Assembly (NCBI GenBank): GCA_020847555.1 | Contig: JADLBT010000511.1 | Coordinates: 1 to 27,946 of the forward strand | Reading direction: 5' to 3' | Source: Gemmataceae bacterium | Lineage (GTDB): Bacteria > Planctomycetota > Planctomycetia > Gemmatales > Gemmataceae | Length of the DNA: 27,946 bases | Shown: piece by piece, positions 1 to 27,919 of the stretch | Position numbering within the stretch: position 1 is the stretch's first letter | Layout of the letters: each line of letters opens with the position of its first letter | Position numbers and translations under genes: made by a program | The notes under the pieces: generated by a model | Told to the model about the DNA's origin: nothing | The model's database searches: none | What the model saw: the letters and a program-made list of their open reading frames with translations, nothing else

Positions 1-789
1 AACTGGCATACCGGCAAGAGCGAAAAATGCCTGCTGTGCTTCCCGCGACTGGAGACCGGCCAGGCTCCCGCCTGTTTCCACTCCTGTGTCGGGCGCATCC
101 GCTACCTGGGCGTGCTGCTCTACGACGCCAGCCGCATCGAGGAGGTCGCCAAACAACCCGACGAGGAGCTGGTCGAGGCACACCGCTCGCTCATCCTCGA
201 TCCGAACGACCCACTGGTGGTCGATGCGGCAATCATGAACGGCATCCACTGGTCGGTGATCGAGGCGGCCCAGCGCTCGCCCGTCTACCAGTTCGTCAAG
301 GTGTGGAAGCTGGCCCTGCCGCCGCACATCGAGTACCGCACGCTGCCGATGCTCTTCTACGTCCCGCCCCTGTCGCCGGTGATGGCGCGGCAGGAGGGCG
401 GAACCGTGCAGCACGTCTCGCAGGATCTGTTCCACGACATCGACGAGGCGCGGGTGCCGATGAAGTTCCTCGCCAATCTGTTCGGCGCCGGCCACGAGGG
501 CAAGGTGCGCTACGCCCTGGCCAAGCAGAAGGCGGTGCGCTGGTATCGGCGGGCGCTGACGGTGGGCGACATCGACATGGCGGCGGCCGAGAAGATGCTG
601 CGCGAGGCCGATTGCACGCCGGAGGAGGCCGAGGAGATCTACAAGCTGACCTCGCTCTGCACCTTCGAGGACCGCTTCGTCATCCCGCCGGCGCACCGCG
701 AGGAGGCGCTGGAGATGATGAAGGATCCGCACGAACACAAGCAAGAGGCGGGCTTCGGATTCCTGTCCGGTCCGCGGAGGGGGCTGTAA
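1..789 (+). CDS. narH: Respiratory nitrate reductase beta subunit (3' part)
   Basis: This is the C-terminal 262 residues of the iron-sulfur subunit that carries electrons from NarI haems to the molybdenum subunit NarG. The reading frame is open from base 1, so the start and the first iron-sulfur motifs lie upstream of the window. Visible residues include C10 and C13, then C25 and C29 followed by VGRIRYLGVLLYDA, which is the classic NarH cluster-binding segment. The tail through PPAHREEA and a Gly/Phe-rich end is also NarH-like. The stop codon overlaps the narJ start by one base, so translation is probably coupled. A narG gene is expected immediately upstream but cannot be seen. Family assignment is certain; a nitrite oxidoreductase beta subunit is the closest alternative, but the following narJ-narI pair argues for nitrate reductase. 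Confidence 0.95.
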   Translation, partial: NWHTGKSEKCLLCFPRLETGQAPACFHSCVGRIRYLGVLLYDASRIEEVAKQPDEELVEAHRSLILDPNDPLVVDAAIMNGIHWSVIEAAQRSPVYQFVKVWKLALPPHIEYRTLPMLFYVPPLSPVMARQEGGTVQHVSQDLFHDIDEARVPMKFLANLFGAGHEGKVRYALAKQKAVRWYRRALTVGDIDMAAAEKMLREADCTPEEAEEIYKLTSLCTFEDRFVIPPAHREEALEMMKDPHEHKQEAGFGFLSGPRRGL

Positions 790-1331
790 TGGAGACGACC
801 TGCGATCTGTACGACGCCCTCGCGGGCCTGCTCGCCTATCCCGACGGCGACTTCGCCGTGCGGCTGCAGCGCTGTCGCGAACGGCTGGCCGGCCGATTCC
901 CCGAGGCGGCCGGACTGCTCGCCCGGTTCGCCGAGCGCATGGGCGGTCTGAACATCGGGGAACTGGAAGAGCTGTACACGCGCACGTTCGACCTGGACCC
1001 GGTCGCGTCGCTGGAGGTGGGCTGGCACCTGTTCGGGGAGAACTACAGCCGCGGCGAGTTCCTGGTCACGATGCGGCAGCTGCTGCGGAAGTACGGACTG
1101 CCCGAAGCGACCGAGTTGCCCGACCACCTGACCCAGGTGCTGCCGACCGTCGCCCGCATGGATCAGGCGGAGGCGGACCGTTTCACGACCGCTCATGTAC
1201 TGCCCGCCCTGGGGAAGATGCTGGCGGGGCTCGGGCAAAAAGAGAGTCCCTACGCCGACGTGCTCGAGACGGTGCGCACCGTGCTTACCAGCCCGTATGC
1301 CGTCGCGCTGCAAGGGGTAGATCATGACTGA
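789..1331 (+). CDS. narJ: Nitrate reductase molybdenum cofactor assembly chaperone
   Basis: NarJ-family chaperones of the TorD/DmsD fold bind the immature NarG subunit in the cytoplasm and hold it until the molybdenum cofactor and iron-sulfur clusters are in. The product is 180 residues, somewhat shorter than E. coli NarJ. The family core is clear: ELEELYTRTFDLDP, then SLEVGWHLFGENYSRGEFL and ELPDHLTQVLP. The chosen ATG overlaps the narH stop (TAATG) and has a GGAGGGGG ribosome site just upstream, so the longer open frame that begins near base 27 is only a shadow of narH. The 3' end overlaps narI by 8 bases, as expected for translationally coupled nar genes. Confidence 0.95.
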   Translation: METTCDLYDALAGLLAYPDGDFAVRLQRCRERLAGRFPEAAGLLARFAERMGGLNIGELEELYTRTFDLDPVASLEVGWHLFGENYSRGEFLVTMRQLLRKYGLPEATELPDHLTQVLPTVARMDQAEADRFTTAHVLPALGKMLAGLGQKESPYADVLETVRTVLTSPYAVALQGVDHD

Positions 1332-2040
1332 CTGGACGAATTATCTGGACACGCTGCTGTTCGCGGTGCTGCCCTACGTGGCCCTGGTCACGCTGGTGCT
1401 GGTCACCATCCAGCGCTACCGGGCGCAGCGCTTCACCTACTCCAGCCTGTCGTCGCAGTTCCTGGAGAACCAGCAGCACTTCTGGGGGCTGGTGCCGTTC
1501 CACTACGGCATCCTGGCGGTGGCCGCCGGGCACGTTATCGCCTTCCTGATCCCGCGCGAGGTTCTGTTCTGGAACAGTCAGCCGCTGCGCCTCTACATCC
1601 TCGAGGTGTCGGCGCTGATATTCGGTCTGCTGACCCTGATCGGGCTGCTGGCGATGATCGGCCGGCGGCTGGGCAACAGCAAGCTCCAGGTGGTGACGAC
1701 TCCGTCGGACTGGGTGCTGTACGGGTTGCTGCTGCTGCAGGTGGCGACGGGCGTGGCGGTGGCGGTGTTCTACCCGTGGGGTTCGTCGTGGTTCGCGACG
1801 TCGGCGGCGCCTTACCTGTGGTCGCTGGTGAAGCTGAACCCGGACGTCAGCTACATCGCGGCGATGCCCCACCTGGTGAAACTGCACGTGGTCGGCGCAT
1901 ACGCCCTGATTGCCTTCTTCCCGTTCACGCGGCTGGTCCACATCCTCGTGGTCCCGAACCCGTACCTGTGGCGCAAGCCGCAGGTGGTGCGCTGGTATCG
2001 CAAGGGGGGACACCGCAGTGAGGCGGAGGTCGAGTCATGA
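1324..2040 (+). CDS. narI: Respiratory nitrate reductase gamma subunit (cytochrome b)
   Basis: NarI is the di-haem b membrane anchor that oxidises quinol and passes electrons to NarH. The 238-residue product has about five hydrophobic segments. All four axial haem histidines can be placed by comparison with E. coli NarI: H60 in FHYGIL, H70 in AAGHVIAF, H188 in KLHVVGAY and H206 in RLVHILV. The 18-residue spacing of the last pair equals that of the E. coli pair H187/H205. This predicts a fully functional quinol-oxidising subunit, which matters because a second quinol-oxidising complex follows directly. The start overlaps narJ by 8 bases and the end overlaps the next cytochrome gene by 4 (ATGA). 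Confidence 0.95.
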   Translation: MTDWTNYLDTLLFAVLPYVALVTLVLVTIQRYRAQRFTYSSLSSQFLENQQHFWGLVPFHYGILAVAAGHVIAFLIPREVLFWNSQPLRLYILEVSALIFGLLTLIGLLAMIGRRLGNSKLQVVTTPSDWVLYGLLLLQVATGVAVAVFYPWGSSWFATSAAPYLWSLVKLNPDVSYIAAMPHLVKLHVVGAYALIAFFPFTRLVHILVVPNPYLWRKPQVVRWYRKGGHRSEAEVES

Positions 2041-2690
2041 AAAGTCGCGTCGTGACAATCGTCCTGCTCGTCGGGGTGGCGTTTAGCGGGCTGGCGCTGG
2101 CGGGGCGGCTGAGCGGCTACCGTCTGCCGGGCAACCAGCAGGGGTACGAGCCCAACCAGCCGATCGCCTTCTCGCACCGGCTGCATGCGGGCGAACTGCA
2201 GATTTCCTGTCAATATTGCCACGGCGGCTCCGAGAAGAGCCGCCACGCGGGCATCCCGGCGGCGAACGTGTGCATGAACTGTCACAAGTCTGTCACTGCC
2301 ACGATGGAGGCGGTGCGGGCCGAGGACAAGCATGCGAAGCACGAGCACCGCCAGCCGAAGCCTGTCGTCTCGCCGGAACTGAAGAAGCTGTACGACGCGC
2401 TGGCGCTGGACGACAAGCTGCAGCCCATCCCGGGCAAGTCGCCGCGCTCGATTGAGTGGGTGAAGGTCCACAACCTGCCGGACCACGCCTCCTTCGACCA
2501 CCGTGCTCACGTCGCGGCGGGGGTGGCGTGCCAGAAGTGCCACGGGCCGGTCGAGACGATGGAGCGGGTGCGCCAGGTCGAGAGCCTGTCGATGGGTTGG
2601 TGCGTGAACTGTCACCGCGAAGCCAACATCACCGGCGTCGCGGGCAAGAAGGTGCGGGCCTCGACCGACTGCTCGACGTGCCACTATTGA
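2037..2690 (+). CDS. actA: Alternative complex III pentahaem cytochrome c subunit
   Basis: ActA is the periplasm-facing multihaem cytochrome c of alternative complex III, a quinol:electron-acceptor oxidoreductase. The 217-residue product has an N-terminal hydrophobic signal or anchor (residues 4-22) and exactly five CXXCH haem sites: CQYCH at 58, CMNCH at 79, CQKCH at 165, CVNCH at 189 and CSTCH at 212. The size and haem number match the pentahaem ActA family, and additional histidines such as H48 and H157 could serve as distal ligands. The ATG overlaps the narI stop by 4 bases, so the gene is part of the nar transcript. A 48-base gap with a hairpin separates it from actB. A stand-alone cytochrome c7/c3-type electron carrier is possible, but the actB-F genes that follow decide the assignment. 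Confidence 0.93.
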   Translation: MKSRVVTIVLLVGVAFSGLALAGRLSGYRLPGNQQGYEPNQPIAFSHRLHAGELQISCQYCHGGSEKSRHAGIPAANVCMNCHKSVTATMEAVRAEDKHAKHEHRQPKPVVSPELKKLYDALALDDKLQPIPGKSPRSIEWVKVHNLPDHASFDHRAHVAAGVACQKCHGPVETMERVRQVESLSMGWCVNCHREANITGVAGKKVRASTDCSTCHY

Positions 2691-2700
2691 CGGCCGGCAA

Positions 2701-2724
2701 GCCCACGAATTGCAATCCGTGGGC
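2701..2724. repeat. Palindrome of the GCCCACGG/CCGTGGGC type between actA and actB
   Basis: Arms GCCCACG (2701-2707) and CGTGGGC (2718-2724) enclose a core that itself contains the 8-bp palindrome ATTGCAAT. Only one opposed base pair in the full 24 bases does not match. It occupies most of the only real gap inside the nar-act block. Related elements occur at about 16641-16704, 18434-18471 and 22937-22986. It has no T-tract, so it is more likely a dispersed repeat or mRNA-processing/stability structure than a terminator. Confidence 0.8.
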
Positions 2725-2738
2725 CTTGGAGAGGTTAA

Positions 2739-5700
2739 ATGTCTGGAGAAACTACCAAGCGCTACTGGGTGAGCCTCGGGCAACGGGACGACGATGCCAA
2801 CTTCCTGCGCGCCGCCGAGAACGAGTTTCCCGAAACTCCCGGACCCGATGCCGGCCCCAACCGGCGCGACTTCCTGCGCGCCGCCGGCTTCGCCTTCGCG
2901 GGGACGATGATCGCCGGCTGCGGCGAGGGGCCGCTGCCCCGCGCGCCGGTGCAGCACGCCCTACCCTACGCCACCCAGCCCGAGGAGATCACGCCCGGCC
3001 GCGCCACCTACTACGCCTCGACCTGCGCCGCCTGCAGCGCGGGCTGTGGGCTGCTGGTCAAGACGCGCGACGGCCGCCCGATCAAGCTGGAGGGGAGCCC
3101 GGAACACCCGCTGTCGCACGGCGGGCTGTGCGCCGTCGGCCAGGCGTCGGTGCTGGGCCTGTACGATCGCCACCGCTTGCAGCACCCGCTGCGCGACGGT
3201 CAGCGGGCCACCTGGGCGGAGGTCGATCGTGACATCCGCGCCCATCTCCAGGAAGTGCGCCGCCTGGGCAAGGCGGTGCGCGTCCTCTCCACCACGGTCA
3301 CCAGTCCGACCCTGCGGGCCGCGATCGGCCGCCTGCTCGGCGATTCGCGGGACGCGCGTCACGTCGTTTACGACCCGCTCTCCTGCTCGGCGATCCTCGA
3401 CGCCCACGAGCGCACCCACGGCGCCCGCGTCCTGCCGCACTACCACTTTGACCGGGCGGAAGTCATCGTTAGCTTCGACGCCGATTTCCTCGGGACGTGG
3501 ATTTCGCCTGTCGAGTTCGCCGCCGCCTACCGCCAGGGGCGCAGCCTGGCGGGCAGCCCGCCGCGTCTGTCGTATCACGCCCAGTTCGAGTCGCGTCTGT
3601 CTCTCACCGGAGCGAAGGCCGACCGGCGCGTGCGCGTCGCGCCCGGCGAGGTGGGCCTGATTGTGACCCATCTCGCCCGCCGCCTCGCGGAGCGCGCCGG
3701 CGCCGCCTTCGACATCACCGGCATCACGCCTTCGCCCGTCCCGGCGGAGTTGCTCGACCAGCTGGCCGCGCGGCTGTGGGCGGCGCGCGGCCGCAGCCTC
3801 GTCGTGTGCGGCAGCCAGGACGTACCGGCGCAGGTGGCGTGCAACTTCCTCAACCACCTGCTCGGCACCTACGGGAGTACGGTGGACATCGCCGCTCCCT
3901 CTTATCAGAGGCAAGGAAGTGACAGGGACGTGGCGGCGCTGCTGCGCGAGTTGCGTCAGGGGCGGGTCGGGGCGCTGTTCATCCTCGACGGCAACCCAGT
4001 GTACGACTTGCCCGGCGGCGATGAGCTGACGAACCTGCTGCGGCGCGTGCCGCTCGTGGTGAGTTGCGCCGAGCGGGCCGACGAGACGGCGGCGGTCGCG
4101 AAGTACGTCTGCCCGCGGCCGCACTACCTCGCATCGTGGAGCGACGCCGAGCCGGTCGCGGGGTTGCTGACCTTGACGCAGCCGACTCTCCGCCCGCTGG
4201 GCGAGGCGCGGCCGGTCCTGGAAAGTCTCGCGGCGTGGGTGGGGGCACCGCGGCCGGCGCTGGCGCTGCTGCAAGATCACTGGCGCGAGCGCGTTCTGCC
4301 GCGCCAGTCCTCGGGCCGCAGTTTCCAGGCGTCCTGGGACCAGGCGGTCCACGATGGCTTCACGCGCGTTACCCCCCCAGCGGTACAGACCAGGGCGTTT
4401 GCGCTCAACGCGGTCCGGCCCATCCTCAGGGCAGACCAGCCCGCGGCCGAGGGCTTCGCTCTGGTCCTGTACCCCAAGGTCGGCATGCTCGACGGCAGTC
4501 AGGCGTACAACCCGTGGCTGCAGGAACTGCCCGATCCGATCACGAAAAGTACCTGGGACAACTACGCCTGCCTCTCGCCCGCGGTTGCGTCCCGCCTCGG
4601 CCTCGCCGAGGGCGACGTGGTGCGCCTGGAGGCGCAGGGCAGTCCGGCCGTCGAGTTGCCCGTGCTGCTCCAACCGGGGCAGCATGACGGAACGGTCGCC
4701 GTGGCGCTGGGCTACGGCAACCGCGCCAGTGCCCGCTTCGCCGAGGTCGGGCCGCAGTGGCTCGAAGCGCGGCCGACGCTCGGCCCCAACGGCCTGGTCG
4801 GCGTCAATGCGGCGCCGCTGCTGGCCTGGGACGGCGACACGCTCCGCCAGGTGCGCGGCACGGTGCGACTGACACGGACGAATCGCCGGCACACGCTGGC
4901 GCTGACACAGGCGCATCACACGATTACGGTGCCGCCGCTCCTGGCTCCGCACGGGCAGCAGCGGCGGCCGATGATCCAGGAGACAACTCGCGATGGCCTG
5001 GCGGCCGGCTGGCGTGCGGAACCACCCTCCCCACACGGGCAGCAGGAAGATCTCTGGCCGAACGACCATCCGGTCACGGGGTCGCGCTGGGGCATGGTCA
5101 TTGACCTGACCGCCTGCACCGGCTGCAGCGCCTGCGTGGTTGCCTGCCAGGTCGAGAACAACATCCCGGTCGTCGGCAAGGACGAGGTGCAGCGTCAGCG
5201 CGAGATGCACTGGCTGCGCATCGATCGCTACTACTCCGGCGACGGCGGTGACGTGGACGTGGCGTTCCAGCCGATGCTGTGCCAGCACTGCGGCAACGCC
5301 CCGTGCGAGACGGTCTGCCCGGTGCTCGCGACCGTCCACAGCTCCGAGGGGCTCAACCAGCAGATCTACAACCGCTGCGTCGGCACCCGCTACTGCGCCA
5401 ACAACTGCCCGTACAAGGTCCGCCGATTTAACTGGTTCAACTACGCGCACGAGGACGCGCTGCAGAACCTCGTCCTGAACCCCGATGTGACGGTGCGGTC
5501 GCGCGGCGTGATGGAGAAGTGCAGCTTCTGCGTCCAGCGCATCCAGAATGCCAGGGCCGAGGCCCGCCGGCGCGGCGAGCCGATGGCGGACGGCGCCATC
5601 CAGACCGCCTGCCAGCAGTCGTGCCCGGCGCACGCCCTCGTCTTCGGCGATTTGAACGACCCCAGAAGTGAAGTGAGCCGGTTGATGCGCGACCAGCGCC

Positions 5701-5793
5701 GCTACCGCGTGCTGGCCGAACTGAACGTGCAGCCGTCGATCGGTTATCTCGGGGTGGTGCGCAACCGCCCGGCTGGGGGAGGGGAGGAGCACC

Positions 5794-5801
<8 letters not shown>
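2739..5801 (+). CDS. actB: Alternative complex III molybdopterin-oxidoreductase-like / iron-sulfur subunit
   Basis: ActB is the large catalytic-core-like subunit of ACIII. It joins a molybdopterin-oxidoreductase-like domain (about residues 88-760) to a ferredoxin-type domain (about 785-1000). The N-terminus has a Tat motif RRDFLR (R42, R43) and a possible lipobox ending at C61, so it is exported and may be lipid-anchored. The C-terminal domain has the cysteine series starting C793, C796, C799, C803, then C848, C851, C856, C860 and two later groups, consistent with four iron-sulfur clusters. A further quartet, C96, C99, C103 and C131, sits where molybdoenzymes bind an extra cluster. The length of 1020 residues is normal for ActB. 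The ATG has GGAGAGG four bases upstream. The stop overlaps actC by 8 bases. ActB homologues studied so far are reported to lack a molybdenum cofactor. Confidence 0.94.
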
Positions 5802-7265
<1,464 letters not shown>

Positions 7266-7269
<4 letters not shown>

Positions 7270-8396
7270 ACCGGCGACTCTTTCTCGGCACCTTTGAACG
7301 CGAGGAGGATCTGCTGGGCGCGACCGCGGAGGCCCGGCAGCAGGGGCTTCGTATCGTCGATGTCTACACGCCCTACGCCGTCCACGGGCTCGACCACGCC
7401 ATGGGCCTGGCCCCGTCGCGCCTGGGCCGCGCCTGCTTCGTTTTCGGGTTGCTCGGCGTCGGGTTCGCGCTGTGGTTCCAGTTCTGGGCGTCGGCGGTGG
7501 ACTGGCCGATCAACGTCGGCGGGCGGCCGTGGAACTCGCTGCCGGCGTTCGTGCCGGTGGCGTTCGAGGTCATGGTGCTGTTCGCCGGGGTGGGCGTCGT
7601 CCTGTCGTTCCTGCTCGTCAGCCGGCTCTATCCGGGCAAGCGAGCGGTCGTGCCGGTCGCCGAGGTGACCGACGATCGCTTCGCCCTGGTGCTCGAAGAG
7701 AATGACGCGGCGTTCGACGTGGACACCGTCCGCCGGCTGTTCGCAGCGCACCACGCGGTCGCGACCGAGGAGCGCGAGGAGCAGGATCCCCCGCCTCCAC
7801 CGGCGCCGGCCCCGCGGTCGCGTGTGCGAATAAACGCGGCGCTGCTCGTACTGCTGGTGGTGCTGGTGGCGCTCAACTGGTTCCTCACTCCTGACCCGGG
7901 CCAGCCGAACCGGGAGTTCCTGCCGGACATGGCGCGGTCGGTGCCGTATGACGCCTTCGCGCCGAACCCGAACTTCCCCAACGGCCAAACGCTCCAGACG
8001 CCTCCGCCCGGAACAATCCCGCGCGGTCAGCTACCGCTGCACTACGCCGCGACGCCGGAGGATGCCCTCCGGGCCGGGCGCGAGCTGATCAACCCGCTCG
8101 ACGGCAAGTCGGCCCAGATCCGCGAGCGCGGCGCCCTGGTCTACGCCAACTACTGCCTGCTGTGCCACGGTCCGGCGGGCAAGGGCGACGGCCCGGTGGC
8201 AGTGCGCGGCGTGCCGCCCCCGCCGTCGTTGCTGGCGGACCACGCCCTGCAGATGAAGGACGGGCAACTCTTCCATGTGCTGACCTACGGGCAGGGCAAC
8301 ATGGCGTCGTATGCGTCGCAGCTGTCGCGCGAGGATCGCTGGAGCGCCATCCTGCACATTCGGGCTCTGCAGCAGGCGGGAAAGGGGCAACCATGA
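7266..8396 (+). CDS. ActD-ActE fusion: DUF3341 membrane domain plus monohaem cytochrome c
   Basis: In ACIII loci described so far ActD (DUF3341, two helices) and ActE (exported monohaem cytochrome c) are normally separate genes; here they are one 376-residue chain. Residues 1-165 are DUF3341, with helices at about 54-74 and 99-119. A proline-rich linker (173-184) leads to a third helix at about 190-208, which takes the place of the ActE signal peptide. The rest is a cytochrome c domain with CLLCH at 297-301 and a likely sixth ligand M346 in GNMASY. Three helices put the N-terminal domain and the haem domain on opposite sides of the membrane, as the subunits require. The start overlaps actC by 4 bases and the stop overlaps actF by 4. 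Confidence 0.9.
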
Positions 8397-9679
8397 ATCG
8401 CGACGACTTCACCTTCCGCGCCCCACGGCAAGCGGTGCGCGCCTGCACGGTACTGGCCGCGATCGGGGCCGTGGCAGTGGCGGCCGGGCTGGCTGTTGCG
8501 CCGACGGAAACCTGGGCCAGCCTGCTGCTGGTGAGCTATGCGCTGGTTGGCCTGAGCCTGGGGAGCGCCGTGCTGATCGCGCTGCAATACGTCACCGGCG
8601 CCGGCTGGGGCGTCGCCCTGCGGCGCGTGCCGGAAGCGATGGCCCTGGCCCTGCCGGTCGGCGCGGTTGGGATCCTGCTGGTTCTGGTGTGCGCCCCGAG
8701 CCTCTACCCCTGGACGTCCCACACCGACGCCCACACCGGCCACGTCTCCGAGCTGAAACACCTGTGGCTGAGCCGGCCCTTCTTCCTGGTCCGGGCGGTG
8801 GTCTACCTCGCCTGCTGGTACGCCTTCATTCTCGCTCTGGTGCGCAACTCGCGCCGCCAGGATCGTGACGGGGCGGTGTCACACACCCGCCGCAATGTGG
8901 CCCTCTCGGCGGCGTTCCTGGTCGTTTTCGGCGTGACATGCTGGCTGGCGAGCTACGACTGGGTGATGTCGCTGGAGCCGGAGTGGTACAGCACGATCTT
9001 CGGGCTGTACGCCTTCGCCGGGCTTTTCCTCGGCGGGTTGGCGGCGCTGACACTGCTGGTGCTCTGGCTGCGGCGCGCCGGCCCGCTGCGCCGCGTCGTC
9101 AGCGTGGACCACCTGCACGACCTGGGCAAGCTGGTGTTCGCCTTCAGCACGTTCTGGGTGTACATCTGGTTCTGCCAGTACATGCTGATCTGGTACGTCA
9201 ACAATCCGGAGGAGACGGCTTACTACATCCGGCGCCAGGACGGGGCGTGGCAGTCGCTGCTGGTTCTCTCGGTGGTGCTCAACTGGGGCGTGCCGTTCCT
9301 GGCGTTGCTGTCGCGGGCGGCCAAGCGTAACGCGGTCTGGCTGGGACGGGTCTGCGCGGTGGTACTGCTCGGCCAGTGGCTCGACCTGTACGTGCTGATC
9401 GGCCCGCCCTTCGGCCAGCCGACGGTGCAGGAACTGGCGCTGCAGGCGGTCCTGCTGCTCGGGGCCGGAGGGGTCTTCTGCCTGGCGGTGTTCCGTGCGC
9501 TGGGCCAGGCGCCGCTCGTCCCGGTGGGCGATCCCTTCCTGGTGGAGAGTCTGCCCGCCAGCAGCACCGCGTTCGCAGGAAGGCTGGCCCATAATCCGGG
9601 TGAGGATGTCTGCTTCCCTGTCACCCACGAGGGCAGAGGGGGGCAGCAAATCGGCCAGGCTCACCCGGACCGTGTCTAA
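8393..9679 (+). CDS. actF: Alternative complex III NrfD-like membrane subunit, second copy
   Basis: ActF is the second quinone-site membrane subunit of ACIII, a divergent relative of ActC. The 428-residue product has about ten hydrophobic helices. Typical ActF segments are visible: YPWTS, LSRPFFLVRAVVYLACW, ASYDWVMSLEPEWYSTIFG, LGKLVFAFSTFWVYIWFCQYM and NPEETAYYIRR. The ATG overlaps the stop of the preceding gene (ATGA), and the longer open frame upstream is only shadow. The last 35 residues, after LVESLPAS, are hydrophilic and have no family counterpart that I recognise. It is the last act gene; a 189-base gap with a long palindrome follows before narK. Confidence 0.92.
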   Translation: MNRDDFTFRAPRQAVRACTVLAAIGAVAVAAGLAVAPTETWASLLLVSYALVGLSLGSAVLIALQYVTGAGWGVALRRVPEAMALALPVGAVGILLVLVCAPSLYPWTSHTDAHTGHVSELKHLWLSRPFFLVRAVVYLACWYAFILALVRNSRRQDRDGAVSHTRRNVALSAAFLVVFGVTCWLASYDWVMSLEPEWYSTIFGLYAFAGLFLGGLAALTLLVLWLRRAGPLRRVVSVDHLHDLGKLVFAFSTFWVYIWFCQYMLIWYVNNPEETAYYIRRQDGAWQSLLVLSVVLNWGVPFLALLSRAAKRNAVWLGRVCAVVLLGQWLDLYVLIGPPFGQPTVQELALQAVLLLGAGGVFCLAVFRALGQAPLVPVGDPFLVESLPASSTAFAGRLAHNPGEDVCFPVTHEGRGGQQIGQAHPDRV

Positions 9680-9699
9680 TTCGCGATCCGGTTATTACC

Positions 9700-9810
9700 G
9701 TCCGAGCCGCGCCCGCAGTGCAGCGGCGTAAGCGGACTGGCGCTGCCGCTTGGAGAGCGGGAGGAAGCGGCCTGGCGCTTACGCCGCTGCGCTGCGGGCG
9801 CGGCTCGGAC
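9700..9810. repeat. Long imperfect palindrome between actF and narK
   Basis: Two 35-base arms (9700-9734 and 9776-9810) are reverse complements with a single mismatch. They flank a 41-base centre that contains a further CCGCTT/AAGCGG pairing. No run of T follows on either strand. It could act as an mRNA-processing or attenuation structure between the act genes and narK, or be a dispersed planctomycete palindrome built around GAGCCGCG. No coding potential was seen in the rest of the gap apart from the narK ribosome site. Confidence 0.85.
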
Positions 9811-9868
9811 ATTATCACGGCGGCGTGAAGGAACCCTGCGAGGCTACCCCGCGTCAAGGAGCGAGGTC

Positions 9869-11095
9869 ATGACCGCACTCACCGCACCGGCCACCTCTCC
9901 CGCGGCGCCGCCCACCGTGCGCCCCTCGGGCAACGCCCTGCAGCTGGCGCTCGGGACGGGGGCGTTCGCCTGCTGCTTTGCCATCTTTGGCTCGGTCTCG
10001 GCCCTGATGCCGGTGCTGCGCGACCGCCTCGGTCTGGACCCGGTGCAGGTCAGTATCGCGCTGGCGATCCCGGTCCTGCTCGGCAGCCTCGGCCGCATCC
10101 CGCTCGGCATCCTGACCGACCGCTACGGCGGCCGGGTGGTGTTCCTCGTGGTGATGGCCTGCTCGATCCTGCCGGCGGTGCTCATGGGCTGGGTGAGCGA
10201 TTACCAGCAACTCCTGGTGTGCGGTTTCTTCATCGGCGTGGCGCTGGCGAGCTTCTCGGTTGGGGTCGGGTTTGTCAGCGGGTGGTATCCGCCGCAGCGG
10301 CAGGGGATGGCGCTGGGGGTGTACGGGGCCGGGAACATCGGCCAGTCACTGGCCGCATTCGGGGGACCGCTGCTGGCGGCGGCGTTCGGCTCAGCCGCGT
10401 GGGGCTTCTGGTCGTTCGCGATCCTGACGTTCGCCTGGCTGGTGCTGTTCGCCCTGCTCGCCCGCAACGCCCCCCTGGCCGGGCCGACGCGATCCCTCGC
10501 CGACTTCCTGCGCCCGCTGGGCGACCCGATGGGCTGGGTGCTGAGCCTGTACTACTTCCTCACCTTCGGCGGGTTCGTCGCGATGGCGATCTACCTGCCG
10601 ATCCTCCTGACGGAGATGTTCAGCCTGACGCCAGCGGACGCCGGGCTGCGCACCGCCGGGTTCGTCGTGCTGGCAACGGCACTGCGGCCGCTCGGCGGGA
10701 TCCTGGCCGACCGAGTCGGCGGGCGGCGCATCCTGCTGTGGGTATTTCCGGTGACGGCGGTCATGGCGATCTTCCTGGCGTGCCCGCTGATGATCACGTT
10801 CACGATCGGGGCGCTGGGAATGGCGGCAGCGATCGGGCTGGGCAACGGGGCGGTGTTCAAGCTGGTGCCCGATTACTTCCCGCGCGCGGTCGGCACGGTG
10901 ACGGGACTGGTCGGGGCGGCCGGTGGTCTTGGTGGGTTCTTCCCTCCGCTCGTCCTCGGCCTGATCCGGACCACGACCGGCTCGTACACCGTGGGTTTCG
11001 TCCTCCTGGCGCTTTTCTGCGCTGCGTGTTTTCTGGTGTGTGCCCGGGTTGGACGGCCGGCACCATCGGTCCGGCCCCCCGCCTCGGCGGTTTAA
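9869..11095 (+). CDS. narK: Nitrate/nitrite transporter, NNP family of the MFS
   Basis: NarK-type proteins move nitrate in and nitrite out across the inner membrane. The 408-residue product has about twelve helices and the two nitrate-binding arginines expected in this family: R76 in [10 protein letters not shown] (helix 2) and R273 in TALRPLGG (helix 8). NNP glycine-rich signatures are also present: [27 protein letters not shown] and [15 protein letters not shown]. The ATG follows an AAGGAG-GAGG ribosome site at 9856-9865. It is the last gene of the respiratory block and uses the same strand as narHJI, so substrate supply is probably made with the enzyme. Whether it is a nitrate/proton symporter (NarK1-like) or nitrate/nitrite antiporter (NarK2-like) cannot be told from sequence alone. 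Confidence 0.93.
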
Positions 11096-11331: not shown

Positions 11332-12216
11332 GTGGTGCCGGCGCTCGATACCATCCACCTGGGCGATTGTGTCGCCCAGCTGCAGCAACTCCCGACCGGG
11401 GCGATCGATCTCGCCTTCGCCGATCCCCCGTTCAACATCGGCTACGAGTACGATGTCTACGACGACCGGCGCGATTGCCGCGCCTACGCGGACTGGACGC
11501 GGCGCTGGATGAGTGAGGTGAGCCGCGCCCTCAAGCCGGACGGGACGTTCTGGATCGCCATCGGCGACGAATACGCGGCCGAGGTGAAGCTGATCGCCCA
11601 GAACGACCTGAGACTGACCTGCCGCAGCTGGGTCATCTGGTATTACACGTTCGGCGTCAACTGCACGAAGAAGTTCAGCCGATCGCACGCCCACCTGTTC
11701 CACTTCGTCAAGGATCCGCAGCGGTTCACGTTCAACGACGCCGAAATCCGCGTCCCGTCCGCACGGCAACTCGTCTACGCCGACACGCGCGCCAACCCGG
11801 CCGGACGGTTGCCCGACGACACCTGGATCCTGCGCCCGCAGGACGTCCCGAATGGGTTCGCGCCGGACCACGACACATGGTACTTCCCGCGCGTCGCGGG
11901 CACGTTCAAGGAGCGAGCTGGCTTCCACGGCTGCCAGATGCCCGAGCGGCTGCTGGGGCGCATCATCGCGTGCTGCTCGAACCGCGGCGAGGTCGTGCTG
12001 GATCCGTTTGCCGGGAGCGGGACGACGCTGGCGGTTGCGAAGAAACTGGGGCGGCGCTGGCTGGGGTTCGAGTTGTCGGAGAACTACGCGGCCCAGGCGA
12101 CGGCGCGCATCGCGAAGGCCGAGGTCGGGCAGTCGCTCGAAGGGGCTGCCGAACCGCTGCAGAGCGCGCCCGCGACGCCGCCGAACGGCAACGGGCGTCG
12201 CAAACGCGCGTACTAA
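11332..12216 (+). CDS. Site-specific adenine or cytosine-N4 DNA methyltransferase, beta class
   Basis: The 294-residue product belongs to the COG0863 family, which transfers a methyl group from S-adenosylmethionine to an exocyclic amino group in DNA. The catalytic motif IV, DPPF, is at residues 31-34, and the AdoMet-binding motif [10 protein letters not shown], comes later at 224-232. This IV-before-I order is the beta class, as in M.HinfI and CcrM. The start is a GTG (a second GTG follows directly) with GAGAGGGG seven bases upstream; no in-frame ATG is available after the previous stop. No restriction gene is next to it, so it looks like an orphan methyltransferase. The last 35 residues are a basic, alanine-rich tail. 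The target sequence cannot be predicted. A palindrome follows directly. Confidence 0.9.
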
Positions 12217-22909: not shown

Positions 22910-22936
22910 CCCCAACCCGAGATGAGAGAGTTCCGT

Positions 22937-22986
22937 TCCCGTGGGGGAAGCGCTGGGGACTGGCCCCACGGGACGCCATCCGTGGG
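22937..22986. repeat. Overlapping hairpins upstream of the CHAT-STAND-WD40 gene
   Basis: TCCCGTGGGG (22937-22946) pairs perfectly with CCCCACGGGA (22964-22973). The same middle strand, CCCACGG (22965-22971), also pairs with CCGTGGG (22980-22986). The two stems cannot form together. This is another copy of the GCCCACGG family, here about 100 bases before the start at 23081. Whether it is regulatory or only nested repeats is open. Confidence 0.65.
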
Positions 22987-23080
22987 CTTTACCCATCCTG
23001 CGGCGAACCGTGCCTTTTTCTCGTTACCTCATATCGTTAGCCGCGTACCTCCGAACGCTTCCCCCGAGGATGAGACTCCG

Positions 23081-26000
23081 ATGGCTCGTGTCGTCTGTCA
23101 GGTGTTGTTCCGGCCCGGCCGCCTCACGTTCGTCTGGTCCAACGGGACTGCCTCCTTCGAGCCCTACCACAAGACCGGCACCGCGTTGGAGGAGTTTCAC
23201 GCCCTGCTTCGGCAGACCGACGAGCGCCTGCACGTCCTCGCCGGTGCAGCCGCGGGACACGACGCGGCGGCCGCTCTCGCCCAGGCCGGACACCAGCTCT
23301 ACCGCAGCCTTTTCCGCAGCGACACGGTCAGCGCCGACGCCGCTCAGGAGGCGCAGCGCTGGTTCGAGGAGATGTCGGAGCGCGAGGGGATCGAACGCCT
23401 GGAAATCCTGACCGACTCCCCCACCCCGCTGCCCTGGGCCGCCGTCACCGCCCGCCCGCCCGACGAGGGGGCGTTTCGCGCTGGTGGCGACGCCTGGCAG
23501 TCGTTCTGGGGCGCGCGTTTCCTTCTGGGCGTGGACCGCCGCCTGAACCCGCTGACGCGCCGCCCGGTCCTGCACGAACCAAACGTCCTTCTCGTCATCG
23601 ACCCGGCTGCCCGCGCTGCCCTGTCCGGCGCGCAGCAGGACCGCCTCCGCGCGTTCACCCAGTCCGGCGGGTTCCGCGTGGCTGAGTCCGTGCGCGACCT
23701 GGACGACGCGGTCCGCGCCGGCCGGCCCGACATGCTGTACATCTTTGCCCGCATGCGGGGGGCGTTCGTGCTGCTCGGCGAGGACACCGTCTCCGGCGCT
23801 GAGCTGCGCGAGTTGCTGGACGCCGAGGGACCGATCGGCGGCGATATCGTGGCGATCCTGAATGCGTGCCGGGTCGGTGACGAAGGCGGCGCCGCGGATC
23901 CATTTGCGTTCCTGCGCGAGCTGGGGCCGCGGGCGTTCGTCGCTCCTTCCGCCCCGCCGCCCGCCGAAGCGGCCGGGCGTTTCGGTCTGGATCTGCTGGG
24001 CGGCCTCCTGACGCGCGGCGAGGCGCTGGGGCGATTGCTCCAGCAGCTGCGTCCGGACCACGGTCCGCTCGGGGTTCTTTATGCGGTCTGTGGCCCGGCC
24101 GACCTGTGCGTCACCGGCCTGCCGGGACAGCCCGCGAGCAACCAACCCGAAGTGCCGGGCGCCGGTGCTGGCGCGGCGCCCGCCTCGCTGCCCGACTTCC
24201 CGTACTTCCCGCTGCTTCCTTACGATGTCGATGACAGCGCACTGTTCATCGGCCGCGAAACCGACACGGAACTGTTCGCGGAGCTGCTCGACGAGCCCGG
24301 GGCGCGGTTGGCGGTACTCCACGGAGGCGCCGGGGCCGGCAAGGGGTCGTTGCTCCGGAGTGGGCTGATCCCCTACCTGGAAGGAGCGACCGGCTACGGC
24401 GTGCTGCTGGACCGCACCGAGGCGCCGGCGGAGGGAACGACCGAGGCGGACTGTCTGGCCCTGGTGGTGCGCGCGACGAACGACCTGGCCGGCCAGCTGG
24501 CCCTCGCGCTGACCGCCTACTGTGCCCGGCCGTGGATCTACGCCACGCCCGCCGGCCGCACCGTCACCGTCGATCTGCCCGGACTCCTGCGGCGTTGCGT
24601 CAGCGAGGGGCTGGCCGCCGGCCAGGAGACGGCCATCCGCGCGGCCGGGGAGGGGAGCAGGCCGCCCGCCCTGCCCGACGCCGCGCCTCCGGGCGCCGGC
24701 ACAGACGCCATCGACACCGAGGCGCTTCGCCGCGCTCTCCGCAGCGACAACGCCCTCCTGGGCCGCGTTCTGACGGCGCTGACCGAGCGCTTGCCGCACG
24801 ATCTGGTGGTGCTGATCGAGCAGGGCGAGGAGTTGCTCACGCTCAGTCGCCAGCCCGGGGGCATGCGGCCGGCCCTGCGGGGAGCGGCGCTCCTGCGCGG
24901 CGTGGCCGAGTCTCCGGCCGGCGCCCGGCTGGTCGTGTCGGTGCGGACCGATTATCACGGGCAATTCCTGGCCGCGTTCGGCGAGGTGCGCGGGGACCGC
25001 AAGGTCATCCGCGACTACCTGCTCACGCTGCCGGACGAGGAGGCGCTGGTCGAGGCCGTCCTCGGCCCGACCGTCACCGAGCCTCCCCCAGGTGGAACGG
25101 AGGCCCCCTTTGCGAAGTACAACTTCCGCTTCGAGGAGGGGTTGCCGGAAGCGGTGGTCCGCGAGGCGCACGAGGCCGGGCGGCGCGACGGGCACGCCGT
25201 CCTGCCAATGCTGCAGATTATCTGCGCCCAGCTGTACCGGACGCTGGAAGGTCGGGCGAACCGGGTGGTGCGGGCCGACGACCTGCGCGAGGTGACGACA
25301 CCGCTGAAAAGGTATTCGCGGGGGCTGGTGGGCAGCGCGGCCGGGCTCGCCAACTATCTCGACTTCCTGCTCCGGCGAACATTCCCGAGCAGCGGCCGAG
25401 ATCGGGAGGCCATGCTGCGGCTGCTGGCGGATCTGCAAACGCGGCAGCCCGATGGGGCTGTCACCCGCGACCTGGTCACCGCCGAGGAAGCCGCGAAGCG
25501 CTGGCAAGGCGTCACGCCGTTCGACGCGGCCCTGGAAGCCGTGTCCGCCCCCGACGTCCACCTGCTCGAGGAGAGCTGGCTGAACGTCGGCGGGCAGGAG
25601 GAACGCTACATCAGCCTCGGTCACGACGTACTGGCGCCGGTGGTGGCGCGGCGCGGCGAGGAGGCCGAGCGCCGGCAGCACGGTCGGGCAAAGGTGGTGG
25701 ACACTCTCTGGATCATGGTCCCGCTGCTGATCCTGGCGGCGGTGGTGGCCTGGCGGTTCGGGATGGCGAGGCGGGCGGCGGAAGAGGGCGAATCGGGTGG
25801 CCAGACACTCAAGGAGGAACTCAAGAAGCTGCAAACGTTCAAGATCGAGGCCATCGCCTCACGCTGGCCGCTGTACCTCGGCAGCCTCGCCAGGGCCGAG
25901 ACGGCCATTCGGTCGGGAGACCTGGTGCGGGCGCGGCAGTTCCTCGTCATGGCGCGGCCGCGATCATTCAACGAGGAGGATCTGCGCGGGTTCGAGTGGT

Positions 26001-27919
26001 TCTACCTGTGGGGTCGGCTGCATCAGGAGCGACAGACCCTGAGCGGCCACCGGGGGCCGGTGAACGCGGTCGCCCTCACTCCGGATGGCAAGCTGCTCGC
26101 GACCGCCGACGAGGGCGGCACGGTCCGGCTGTGGGACGGGGCGAGCGGCCAGATCCGCGCCGCCCTCGTCGGCCACAAGGGGGCCGTCCACGCCCTCGCC
26201 CTCGCGCCCGACGGCAAGACCGTCGCCTCCGGCGGGGCGGACGGCTCCATCCTGCTCTGGGACGCCACGGCCGGGGAGAAGGAATACGCCGAGGTCGCCA
26301 AACCGCAGGCGACCCTCGCGCGGCAGAAGGGCGCCGTCCGCGTGCTCGCCTTCGCCCCCGACGGCAAGACACTCGCAGCGACCGGGGCCGACGGAACCGT
26401 ACAGTTGTGGGACGTGCCGGCGAAGGACGGGGCGAAGCCGCGGGCTAGCCTGGCGGAGCACAAGGGTGCTGTCGAGGCGCTCGCCTTCGCGCCCGACGGC
26501 AAGACGCTGGCTACCGGCGGCACGGATGAGGTCGTGCGGTTGTGGGACGTTTCGGCCGCCGGCAAGGAGAAGGTGAGTCGCAAGCTTGAAGGGCACGGCG
26601 GGCCGGTGCACGCGGTGGCGTTCGGGCCGGGCGGGAAGTACCTGGCCAGCGCCGCGCCGGAGAAGCGGAACGGGGCCGAGGTGGCGACGGTGCGCGTCTG
26701 GGATCCGGCGAGCGGCAAGGAACTGGCGGCCCTCGATCCGGCCCCGGTCCGCGTGTTCGCGCTGGCGTTCCTGGACGGGAAAACGCTGGCGACCGGGGGT
26801 AGCGGCGACGCGGTCCGACTGTGGGACGCGGCGACCGGCCGGCCGCGCGGGCAGCTGAAGGGGCATCTCGGCTGGGTGCGTGCTCTGGCGGCGGCGCCTG
26901 GCGGCAAGAGCCTGCTCTCCGGCAGCGTGGACGGGACGGCGCGGCTGTGGGGCGCGGACGGCCGGAGTGGGTCGAACGTGCTCGGTAGCCACAAGGGGTG
27001 GGCGAACGCGGTGGCCTTCTCACCCGACGACAGGCAACTTGTCTCGGGCGGGGCCGACGGCGCGATCAAGCTGTGGGATCCGGCGACCGGCAAGGAGGAG
27101 AAGACGCTGACCGGCCACAAGGGGGCGGTCCTGGCGCTGGCGTACGCGCCGGACGGGAAGCTGCTGGCGTCCGGCGGCGCGGACGGTACGCTGCGTCTGT
27201 GGGACACCGACCCCAGCTCGAAGACGTTCGGGTCGGAGCGGCACGTGCTGAAGGGACACCAGGGAGCGGTGACCTGCCTGTCCTACGCGCCCACGGGCAA
27301 GGGTATCCTCTCCGGCGGAGAGGACGGTGCGCTCCAGCTATGGATAATCAACCCGGAGGAACAGAAGGACGTCCCGGCCGCGACCTTCAAGGGCCACGCC
27401 GGGGCGGTCCGCGGCGTCGCCTTTCTGGTGGGGACGAGCCTGGTGGCGAGCGGTGGCGACGATCGAATGCTCCTGGTCTGGGATCTCAAAACGGGCCAGC
27501 AGAAGGGCCAGCCGTTGCAGGGACAGACAGCGGAGATCCGGGCGCTCACCTACTGGCCGAAGACCAACAGATATGTGATCGCCGCCGGCGCCGACCGAAC
27601 GCTGCGGATGTGGGACGTGGTGGACGGCAAGGAGGAAACGGCCCTGCGCGGCCACACGGACACCGTCAATGCCGTGGCGATCAGCGGAGGGGGGAAGCCG
27701 GTCCTGGTTTCGGGCGGGTGGGACGGCATGGTGAAGCTCTGGGATCCGGCGCGCGGGTGGACCCGCTTCACGCTGACCGGCCACAGCGGGCCGGTGCAGG
27801 CAGTCGCTGTCTCGACTGATCGGCATGTTCTCGCCTCTGCGGGCCGCGACGGCACGGTGCGTCTCTGGCGTGCCGCCCTCGAACCGTTCCCTGCTGTCCG
27901 GCCCCACGCTCAGGAGTGA
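23081..27919 (+). CDS. CHAT-like - STAND NTPase - transmembrane - 14x WD40 protein
   Basis: The 1612-residue product is a multidomain signalling protein. Residues about 130-370 resemble a CHAT (caspase-like) domain: NVLLVIDPAA, DMLYIFARM, AILNACRVG with C263, and the closing GVLYAVCGPADLCV. The position that normally holds the catalytic His reads R224. Residues about 395-860 are a STAND/AAA NTPase: FIGRETDTELF, Walker A GGAGAGKGS (415-423, K421), a Walker B-like VVLIEQGEELL (E580 where Asp is usual) and SVRTDYHGQF. One transmembrane helix spans about 875-893, then a helical linker with LRGFEWFYLWGRLH. From about 986 to the end are 14 WD40 repeats (count of LWD-type ends), enough for two seven-bladed propellers. 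The ATG at 23081 has GAGG about 11 bases upstream; the longer open frame crosses a hairpin repeat and is not used. The domain order suggests a sensor-activated NTPase of the prokaryotic conflict or signalling type. Confidence 0.9.
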   Translation: MARVVCQVLFRPGRLTFVWSNGTASFEPYHKTGTALEEFHALLRQTDERLHVLAGAAAGHDAAAALAQAGHQLYRSLFRSDTVSADAAQEAQRWFEEMSEREGIERLEILTDSPTPLPWAAVTARPPDEGAFRAGGDAWQSFWGARFLLGVDRRLNPLTRRPVLHEPNVLLVIDPAARAALSGAQQDRLRAFTQSGGFRVAESVRDLDDAVRAGRPDMLYIFARMRGAFVLLGEDTVSGAELRELLDAEGPIGGDIVAILNACRVGDEGGAADPFAFLRELGPRAFVAPSAPPPAEAAGRFGLDLLGGLLTRGEALGRLLQQLRPDHGPLGVLYAVCGPADLCVTGLPGQPASNQPEVPGAGAGAAPASLPDFPYFPLLPYDVDDSALFIGRETDTELFAELLDEPGARLAVLHGGAGAGKGSLLRSGLIPYLEGATGYGVLLDRTEAPAEGTTEADCLALVVRATNDLAGQLALALTAYCARPWIYATPAGRTVTVDLPGLLRRCVSEGLAAGQETAIRAAGEGSRPPALPDAAPPGAGTDAIDTEALRRALRSDNALLGRVLTALTERLPHDLVVLIEQGEELLTLSRQPGGMRPALRGAALLRGVAESPAGARLVVSVRTDYHGQFLAAFGEVRGDRKVIRDYLLTLPDEEALVEAVLGPTVTEPPPGGTEAPFAKYNFRFEEGLPEAVVREAHEAGRRDGHAVLPMLQIICAQLYRTLEGRANRVVRADDLREVTTPLKRYSRGLVGSAAGLANYLDFLLRRTFPSSGRDREAMLRLLADLQTRQPDGAVTRDLVTAEEAAKRWQGVTPFDAALEAVSAPDVHLLEESWLNVGGQEERYISLGHDVLAPVVARRGEEAERRQHGRAKVVDTLWIMVPLLILAAVVAWRFGMARRAAEEGESGGQTLKEELKKLQTFKIEAIASRWPLYLGSLARAETAIRSGDLVRARQFLVMARPRSFNEEDLRGFEWFYLWGRLHQERQTLSGHRGPVNAVALTPDGKLLATADEGGTVRLWDGASGQIRAALVGHKGAVHALALAPDGKTVASGGADGSILLWDATAGEKEYAEVAKPQATLARQKGAVRVLAFAPDGKTLAATGADGTVQLWDVPAKDGAKPRASLAEHKGAVEALAFAPDGKTLATGGTDEVVRLWDVSAAGKEKVSRKLEGHGGPVHAVAFGPGGKYLASAAPEKRNGAEVATVRVWDPASGKELAALDPAPVRVFALAFLDGKTLATGGSGDAVRLWDAATGRPRGQLKGHLGWVRALAAAPGGKSLLSGSVDGTARLWGADGRSGSNVLGSHKGWANAVAFSPDDRQLVSGGADGAIKLWDPATGKEEKTLTGHKGAVLALAYAPDGKLLASGGADGTLRLWDTDPSSKTFGSERHVLKGHQGAVTCLSYAPTGKGILSGGEDGALQLWIINPEEQKDVPAATFKGHAGAVRGVAFLVGTSLVASGGDDRMLLVWDLKTGQQKGQPLQGQTAEIRALTYWPKTNRYVIAAGADRTLRMWDVVDGKEETALRGHTDTVNAVAISGGGKPVLVSGGWDGMVKLWDPARGWTRFTLTGHSGPVQAVAVSTDRHVLASAGRDGTVRLWRAALEPFPAVRPHAQE

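Follow-up and report, generated by a model that had tools for sequence, protein, structure and literature searches.

A nitrate-respiration operon from a Gemmataceae bacterium that may encode alternative complex III of a distinct anaerobic class

The DNA considered here is a stretch of 27,946 nucleotides from a Gemmataceae bacterium (assembly GCA_020847555.1, contig JADLBT010000511.1), referred to below at its full length as the window. On its plus strand, open reading frames (ORFs), family scans and comparison with solved structures place narH (in part), narJ, narI, actA, actB, actC, actDE, actF and narK in one row, so that genes of the nitrate reductase Nar stand together with those of alternative complex III (ACIII). 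We propose that this block belongs to a nitrate-respiration operon in which a separate, anaerobic class of ACIII passes electrons to the dihaem cytochrome NarC and to NarI, a reading of the sequence that falls only a little short of being probable. More generally, an anaerobic form of ACIII, a complex so far assigned to oxygen respiration, is probable, because the block recurs across phyla and its ACIII occupies a separate branch with an apparent extra cluster.

The initial annotation had described a complete ACIII inside a nitrate reductase operon, and comparison with solved structures bears this out subunit by subunit. ActA, ActB, ActC, ActD, ActE and ActF each match the corresponding subunit of solved ACIII and are encoded in one cluster. 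Motifs for c-type haem number five CxxCH in ActA and one in ActDE, as ACIII requires. In the B2 half of ActB, the 15 cysteines assigned to one 3Fe-4S and three 4Fe-4S clusters (positions 793-962) are each present in 57 to 59 of the 59 nar-linked rows, any other row having a gap there, and in all 27 other copies. The window's ActC has all 23 of the quinol-site and ion-channel residues listed in Table 2 of PMC8076601, and by eye the N-terminus of ActB is of the twin-arginine translocation (Tat) type (RRDFL). Overall, the quinol and redox sites of the nar-linked ACIII look intact, and quinol:cytochrome c activity and proton pumping are predicted. The solved oxygen-type and photosynthetic complexes (6f0k, 6btm, 6lod and 8k9e) have in common with it the six subunits, a five-haem ActA, the four B2 cluster sites, and the quinol-site and channel residues of ActC. 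They differ in that the nar-type complex is encoded with a nitrate reductase, that its ActC lies on a branch apart from second copies that are mostly oxidase-linked, and that the B1 half of its ActB adds a four-cysteine motif missing from all four solved ActBs. The fusion of ActD to ActE was considered as a mark of the class and rejected: by a rough frame test, 6 of 52 nar-linked ORFs carry it and so do 6 of 31 other copies, and Melioribacter also has it (PMC5492636).

Related loci were gathered by scanning genomes of GTDB species with a NarI alignment; 337 NarI loci were confirmed, and the analysis used the best 80. Act genes lie downstream of narI in 67 of the 80, and in 60 of the 63 that extend at least 5 kb beyond narI; ActA, B, C, D and F all fall within the retrieved stretch in 39 of the 80. 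A distance of less than 150 bases between narI and actA, as in the window, is seen at 8 loci, while a narK-like match stands between narI and act at 55 of the 67. By record title, and with the caution that bins may be misassigned, the act-bearing loci represent about ten phyla: Planctomycetota, Acidobacteria, Ignavibacteria/Chlorobi/Bacteroidetes, Hydrogenedentota, Zixibacteria, KSB1, Marinimicrobia, Krumholzibacteriota, Deltaproteobacteria and one Ectothiorhodospiraceae bin. The search for narI followed by act genes, suggested in the initial annotation, has thus returned a broad distribution. An even draw of 246 Planctomycetota genomes contains NarI in 39 and ActC in 131, and 26 of those 39 have ActC 3.8-7.4 kb 3' of NarI on the same strand. 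The other 13 lack an ActC within 12 kb on that contig and strand: the downstream contig is shorter than 5.4 kb in four and ample in two, and in seven NarI lies on the plus strand of a contig of unread length. By these counts, the linkage of nar and act is more than chance. Two groups of neighbouring genes recur near the operon, upstream of narC/narG, each with one member scanned: an Rrf2-type regulator at 35 loci (e.g., L005:3007-3459) and an iron-sulfur repair (RIC) protein at 9 (e.g., L003:392-1120). They give a hint of nitric oxide (NO) or iron-sulfur sensing.

Many of these organisms have more than one ACIII. ActC matches occur in 37 of 40 genomes searched. In 35 genomes, the top ActC copy shares 69-85% identity with that of the window, and at every locus long enough to show actC this copy is the nar-linked one. 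The 31 second copies retrieved (L081-L111) share 51-65% identity with the window's ActC, and 23 of them have a CuA subunit II motif nearby, scored as a motif in a frame of at least 120 amino acids. A second act locus beside oxidase genes, which the initial annotation had recommended looking for, is therefore present in many genomes as a separate copy. Trees of ActC were made by a quick method with no bootstrap from frames of more than 380 amino acids, with aligned pieces for 15 added loci. The first tree has 91 rows, of which the 55 from nar-linked loci fall on one side of a branch with a Shimodaira-Hasegawa-like approximate likelihood ratio (SH-aLRT) of 95.6; 29 second copies form a second group and seven distant NrfD-type rows, L111 included, form a third. 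With the 15 loci added, 70 nar-linked or kindred rows fall on one side (97), and the 29 second copies (94) and seven distant rows (99) are again apart. L111, from genome G026, is an act cluster with a four-cysteine ActB and with neither nar nor a CuA motif in its stretch, and L112-L117 are more distant ActC-like/ActB-like clusters.

The four-cysteine motif of nar-linked ActB has the form C-x2-C-x3-C-x27-C and consists of C96, C99, C103 and C131 in the window. All four cysteines are aligned in 57 of 59 nar-linked rows, the window counted, in a set that omits L033 and L064, which are mis-framed and have the motif in another frame, and the fragment L074. The two remaining rows, L061 and L069, both from Marinimicrobia, are each one cysteine short. 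Only one of 27 other ActB copies has all four (L111), and another of the 27, L088, has an alignment gap there. All 17 genomes in which the two kinds of ActB are both readable agree, with four cysteines in the nar-linked copy and none at those positions in the others. The nar-type branch thus appears to carry one extra predicted iron-sulfur cluster.

The motif has a counterpart among molybdenum enzymes. The best of these for a profile of 32 nar-type B1 rows is ArrA (6cz7_A, E 2e-26), whose FS0 cysteines fall in the same columns as the four cysteines of ActB. ArrA is a Mo-bisPGD enzyme in which a further cysteine is the molybdenum ligand; nar-type ActB differs from it in having no conserved cysteine at the candidate ligand position. 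An intact molybdenum site in ActB is disfavoured, as position 216 is S, A or C and the column beside the ArrA ligand cysteine is mostly I. The profile result agrees with the kinship of ActB and ArrA described in PMC10100899. In the ACIII of R. marinus, the B1 half is reported to have no prosthetic group, and the role of the FeS2-4 wire is termed elusive (PMC5928083). The window's ActB departs from that description by virtue of its motif, and we regard a cofactor-free B1 half as a trait of the solved complexes that does not define the family.

On the ActC tree, the distribution of the motif requires one change over 91 scored rows, 66 with it and 25 without. In that count L112 and L113 were scored on the shorter C-x2-C-x3-C and L117 was scored in error because of a ferredoxin motif in the other half; removal of rows cannot increase the count. 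The tree on which the changes were counted included wrong frames for ActC of L121, L123 and L126 and for ActB of L121, L123, L124, L126 and L129, and its groups are not used here. Since four distant rows (L112, L113, L115 and L116) show at least the first three cysteines in their large subunit and ArrA carries the motif, loss in oxidase-type ACIII would be the simpler story on this unrooted tree.

The proposed route also calls for a periplasmic cytochrome. Clustering of neighbouring frames reveals a gene with two CxxCH motifs upstream of narG at 54 of the 80 loci, and many of the remaining loci start too far downstream to show it. In L001, the sole copy scanned, the protein has a cytochrome c domain (PF00034) and, by eye, an apparent C-terminal membrane helix. 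The NarC of Thermus, also a dihaem cytochrome, is bound to the membrane on the periplasmic side and interacts with NarI in two-hybrid assays (PMC7694296). As in the window's relatives, the Thermus narCGHJIKT operon has the dihaem gene before narG, followed by narGHJI and transporters; it differs in that an Nrc dehydrogenase adjoins it, and the text of PMC7694296 does not mention an "alternative complex". The NarG of L001 lies above the TIGR01580 cut-off. A Tat signal on NarG, which the initial annotation had suggested looking for upstream, was sought in the relatives, and no Tat-type motif occurs in any of the 58 narG frames, of which three are truncated 5'. The nitrate site is therefore probably cytoplasmic, and a Tat-exported Nar finds no support in these relatives.

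Some Planctomycetota dispense with the nitrate reductase genes beside act. Ten of the sampled genomes have an ActC of at least 64% identity and no NarI, a few more have the two unlinked, and stretches were taken from 15 such genomes. At nine Planctomycetota loci (L121-L126 and L128-L130), a frame for a two-CxxCH cytochrome and then one for a NarI-like protein directly precede actA-F, and these stretches contain no match to narG or narH. Of the three cytochromes scanned, those of L122 and L123 score past a cytochrome c cut-off and that of L128 falls just short. All nine NarI-like proteins exceed the PF02665 cut-off, keep H70 and H188, and have lost H60 and H206. In E. coli numbering, the pair that is kept presumably holds the haem on the periplasmic side and the pair that is lost the haem towards NarGH. 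The four cysteines of ActB are present at all nine loci. A partnership of NarC/NarI-type proteins with ACIII thus occurs without an adjacent nitrate site. Six CxxCH motifs occur in the actA frame of two further loci, L119 and L120, apparently through a merger of actA with narC-like sequence, and genes for Fer4_5, YHS-domain and Fer4 proteins come before this frame in L119.

In the full form seen in relatives, the operon would read narC-narG-narH-narJ-narI-(narK)-actA-B-C-D-E-F. NarGHI would face the cytoplasm with dihaem NarC on the periplasmic side, a NarC being presumed for the window organism as well. Menaquinol would be oxidised at ActC, probably with proton pumping, and the electrons would move through FeS1 of ActB to the haems of ActA and ActE. 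Most likely they would then cross to NarC seated on NarI and pass through NarI, NarH and NarG to nitrate, although both this step and its direction are inferred. When nitrate is scarce, other periplasmic acceptors could provide an alternative outlet. The extra [4Fe-4S]-type site of ActB, if occupied, would lengthen the iron-sulfur branch, which has no known acceptor in oxygen-type ACIII. Of the schemes that leave no conserved part idle, the simplest would be a path from quinol through ACIII, NarC and NarI to nitrate or another periplasmic acceptor. A direct assembly of ACIII and Nar, one of two options raised in the initial annotation, gains from the NarC-like gene and from the cytochrome/NarI-like/act units. 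In its boldest form, which we regard as doubtful, the anaerobic ACIII would be a second class joined with NarC and NarI in one nitrate respirasome. The ACIII would pump protons while its electrons returned through NarC and NarI to cytoplasmic nitrate, the fifth ActB cluster, a [4Fe-4S], would make a working second outlet of the supposedly idle iron-sulfur wire, a NarI/NarC-type pair would be a permanent part of ACIII in some Planctomycetota that lack an adjoining nitrate reductase, and the nar-type would preserve an older cofactor state lost in the oxygen-type.

Several observations weigh against electron transfer from ACIII to NarC and NarI. Gene order establishes neither contact nor the direction of electron flow, and the window itself, which starts inside narH, shows neither narC nor narG. 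The window's NarI aligns with E. coli NarI at all four haem ligands, as the initial annotation had noted, and has R89 at the position of E. coli K86. Taking the ligand and K86 roles in E. coli, the latter marking the quinol site, as a guide, the window's NarI can probably oxidise quinol without ACIII, because its two haem-ligand pairs are intact and its quinol-site position is basic. Three loci with adequate downstream sequence have no act genes (L038, L049 and L066), and in two Planctomycetota genomes with ample contig (G242 and G277) NarI has no ActC within 12 kb. In three of the nine genomes with stand-alone units (G231, G253 and G242), NarI is present on another contig. With the added loci in the ActC tree, the nar-linked rows alone are not one group, since stand-alone and hybrid loci fall among them; six changes are counted, at least two of them forced by starred branches. 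Other quinol:cytochrome c routes may also exist, because cytochrome b of family PF00033 is found in 34 of 40 genomes (positive control detected).

One alternative is that ACIII and NarC feed periplasmic reductases for nitrite, NO or N2O, NrfA or another multihaem enzyme, while NarI alone serves nitrate; the genes would then stand together because all are needed under nitrate. We consider this rather unlikely. It would fit the failure of Thermus strains without NarC to grow on nitrite or NO (PMC7694296), as well as the Rrf2-type and iron-sulfur repair genes near the operon. The searches for NirS, NrfA, NosZ and cytochrome b covered 40 genomes (to G040), and further genomes were searched for NirK, NarI and ActC. 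NrfA, with its positive control detected, occurs in 18 of the 40, and the NosZ propeller, searched for without a positive control, in 4. Against these stand the nitrite reductases: copper-containing NirK is above its curated cut-off in none of 79 genomes (0 of 40, with the positive control detected, and 0 of 39, among which G305 has one sub-threshold match), and cd1-type NirS was matched in none of 40 in a search that had no positive control. Moreover, the nar-act linkage is kept in G001, which is negative for NirK, NrfA and NosZ. The other option of the initial annotation, that ACIII sends electrons to later denitrification steps, is weakened by the NirK and NosZ counts; NO reductases were outside the search.

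A second alternative, to our mind improbable, is co-regulation only, in which ACIII serves generally as an anaerobic quinol:cytochrome c reductase, made alongside Nar but with no direct partnership between the two. It draws on gene order being the sole direct link in the window and on the likely independence of NarI, but it sits less well with a nar-linked ActC that keeps to one branch across about ten phyla and apart from copies in the same genomes, or for the cytochrome/NarI-like/act units that have no adjoining narGH. Electron flow could also run in reverse, with Nar as a nitrite oxidoreductase, NarI passing electrons to NarC, and ACIII delivering them to quinone or through a cytochrome to an oxidase. 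A similar narC-type cluster in Nitrobacter acts as a nitrite oxidoreductase (PMC7694296) and a NarG clade holds some nitrite oxidisers along with nitrate reducers (PMC10732223); on the other side, narG of L001 is well over the TIGR01580 cut-off and the narK-like match usually lies between narI and act, neither of which fixes the direction. Reverse flow seems very unlikely to us. The suggestion in PMC10732223 that genes of this kind encode a novel NrfAH-like nitrite reductase is scarcely credible for the act block. The NrfD-type subunits, the multihaem cytochrome and the position after nar would suit it, but every subunit matches solved ACIII, ActC keeps the quinol and channel residues of ACIII, and no protein of the block matches PF02335, the NrfA-type family. 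Weighed with these alternatives, transfer from ACIII to NarC and NarI is the preferred reading.

The linkage of nar and act is not new, because PMC10732223 already reports 13 instances, in metagenome-assembled genomes (MAGs), of nar upstream of a six-gene cluster that matched no described complex and for which an NrfAH-like nitrite reductase or a respiratory-chain protein was proposed. That cluster has the same gene content and position after nar as the act block of the window. The section of PMC10732223 concerned covers its own MAGs only and mentions no extra cluster; five of its MAGs are in our locus set (OFTM5 as L029, OFTM177 as L059, OFTM250 as L035, OFTM341 as L023 and OFTM389 as L054), not necessarily among the 13. 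In the literature searched, no nar-linked cluster is called ACIII and no fifth cluster is described; papers of 2010-2013 on ACIII gene context were not covered, and a prior mention is possible. What is added here is the ACIII identity of the cluster and how widely it is spread, together with the separate ActC branch, the ActB cluster motif, NarC at the head of the operon and the stand-alone units with a NarI-like protein. The planctomycete Thermogutta terrifontis likewise has a quinol:cytochrome c complex beside narGHI (PMC5673643), but it is a cytochrome bc1 instead of ACIII, with no NarC described.

A survey from 2023 assigned the ActB family exclusively to aerobic respiration and dated its rise by oxygen (PMC10100899). 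A widespread ACIII of nitrate operons with an added cluster motif bears on that claim and on the elusive role of the FeS2-4 wire: the extra motif probably sits where that wire ends and gives a hint of its possible destination. Nar-type ACIII further offers a possible older state for the evolution of ActB, and genomes that hold both classes of ACIII, one with the motif and one without, provide a natural comparison. A published unknown, possibly nitrite-reducing gene cluster is at the same time reassigned to ACIII.

The features of the window are collected in Table 1. As had been described in the initial annotation, the genes lie on a single strand in the given order with overlaps of 1, 8, 4, 8, 4 and 4 bases at six junctions. 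The coordinates are base 789 for narH/narJ, where narH ends and narJ starts, 1324-1331 for narJ/narI, 2037-2040 for narI/actA, 5794-5801 for actB/actC, 7266-7269 for actC/actDE and 8393-8396 for actDE/actF. Gaps occur at the two other junctions, of 48 bases between actA and actB and 189 bases between actF and narK.

Table 1. Annotated features of the nar-act block, in window coordinates
Feature	Coordinates	Strand	Basis
narH 3' part, nitrate reductase beta subunit	1..789	+	PF14711; TIGR01660 partial (positions 234-483), truncated at window start
narJ, chaperone	789..1331	+	TIGR00684 above cut-off; PF02613; start codon from sequence
narI, dihaem cytochrome b, H60 H70 H188 H206	1324..2040	+	TIGR00351 above cut-off; E. 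coli NarI alignment
actA, pentahaem cytochrome c, 5 CxxCH	2037..2690	+	matches 6btm_A, 6f0k_A
actB, molybdopterin-like/Fe-S fusion	2739..5801	+	6f0k_B E 3e-194; Cys conservation; ArrA profile alignment
FS0-type [4Fe-4S] motif C96-C131 of ActB, coding DNA	3024..3131	+	computed from actB start 2739
actC, NrfD-type quinol-binding subunit	5794..7269	+	solved ACIII match; 23/23 PMC8076601 residues
actD fused to actE (monohaem cytochrome c)	7266..8396	+	PF11821, PF13442; 6f0k_D, 6f0k_E
actF, second NrfD-type subunit	8393..9679	+	6f0k_F E 2e-59
inverted repeat between actF and narK	9700..9810	.	arms 9700-9733, 9777-9810; 1 mismatch in 34
narK, nitrate/nitrite transporter family	9869..11095	+	TIGR00886 210 bits (cut-off 311.7, so below); PF07690

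The ActF of the window has no Pfam or NCBIfam match. Among the 120 matches listed for NarI, the relatives include a Gemmataceae and a Planctomycetes MAG. The arms of the inverted repeat between actF and narK are separated by a 43-base spacer, and no further copy with 9 or fewer mismatches occurs within the window. On the same strand, 3' of narK, lies a gene for a DNA N6/N4 methylase (PF01555) at 11332-12216, and far downstream a frame of 1665 amino acids (22922-27919) has a C-terminal part that by eye is WD40-repeat-like.

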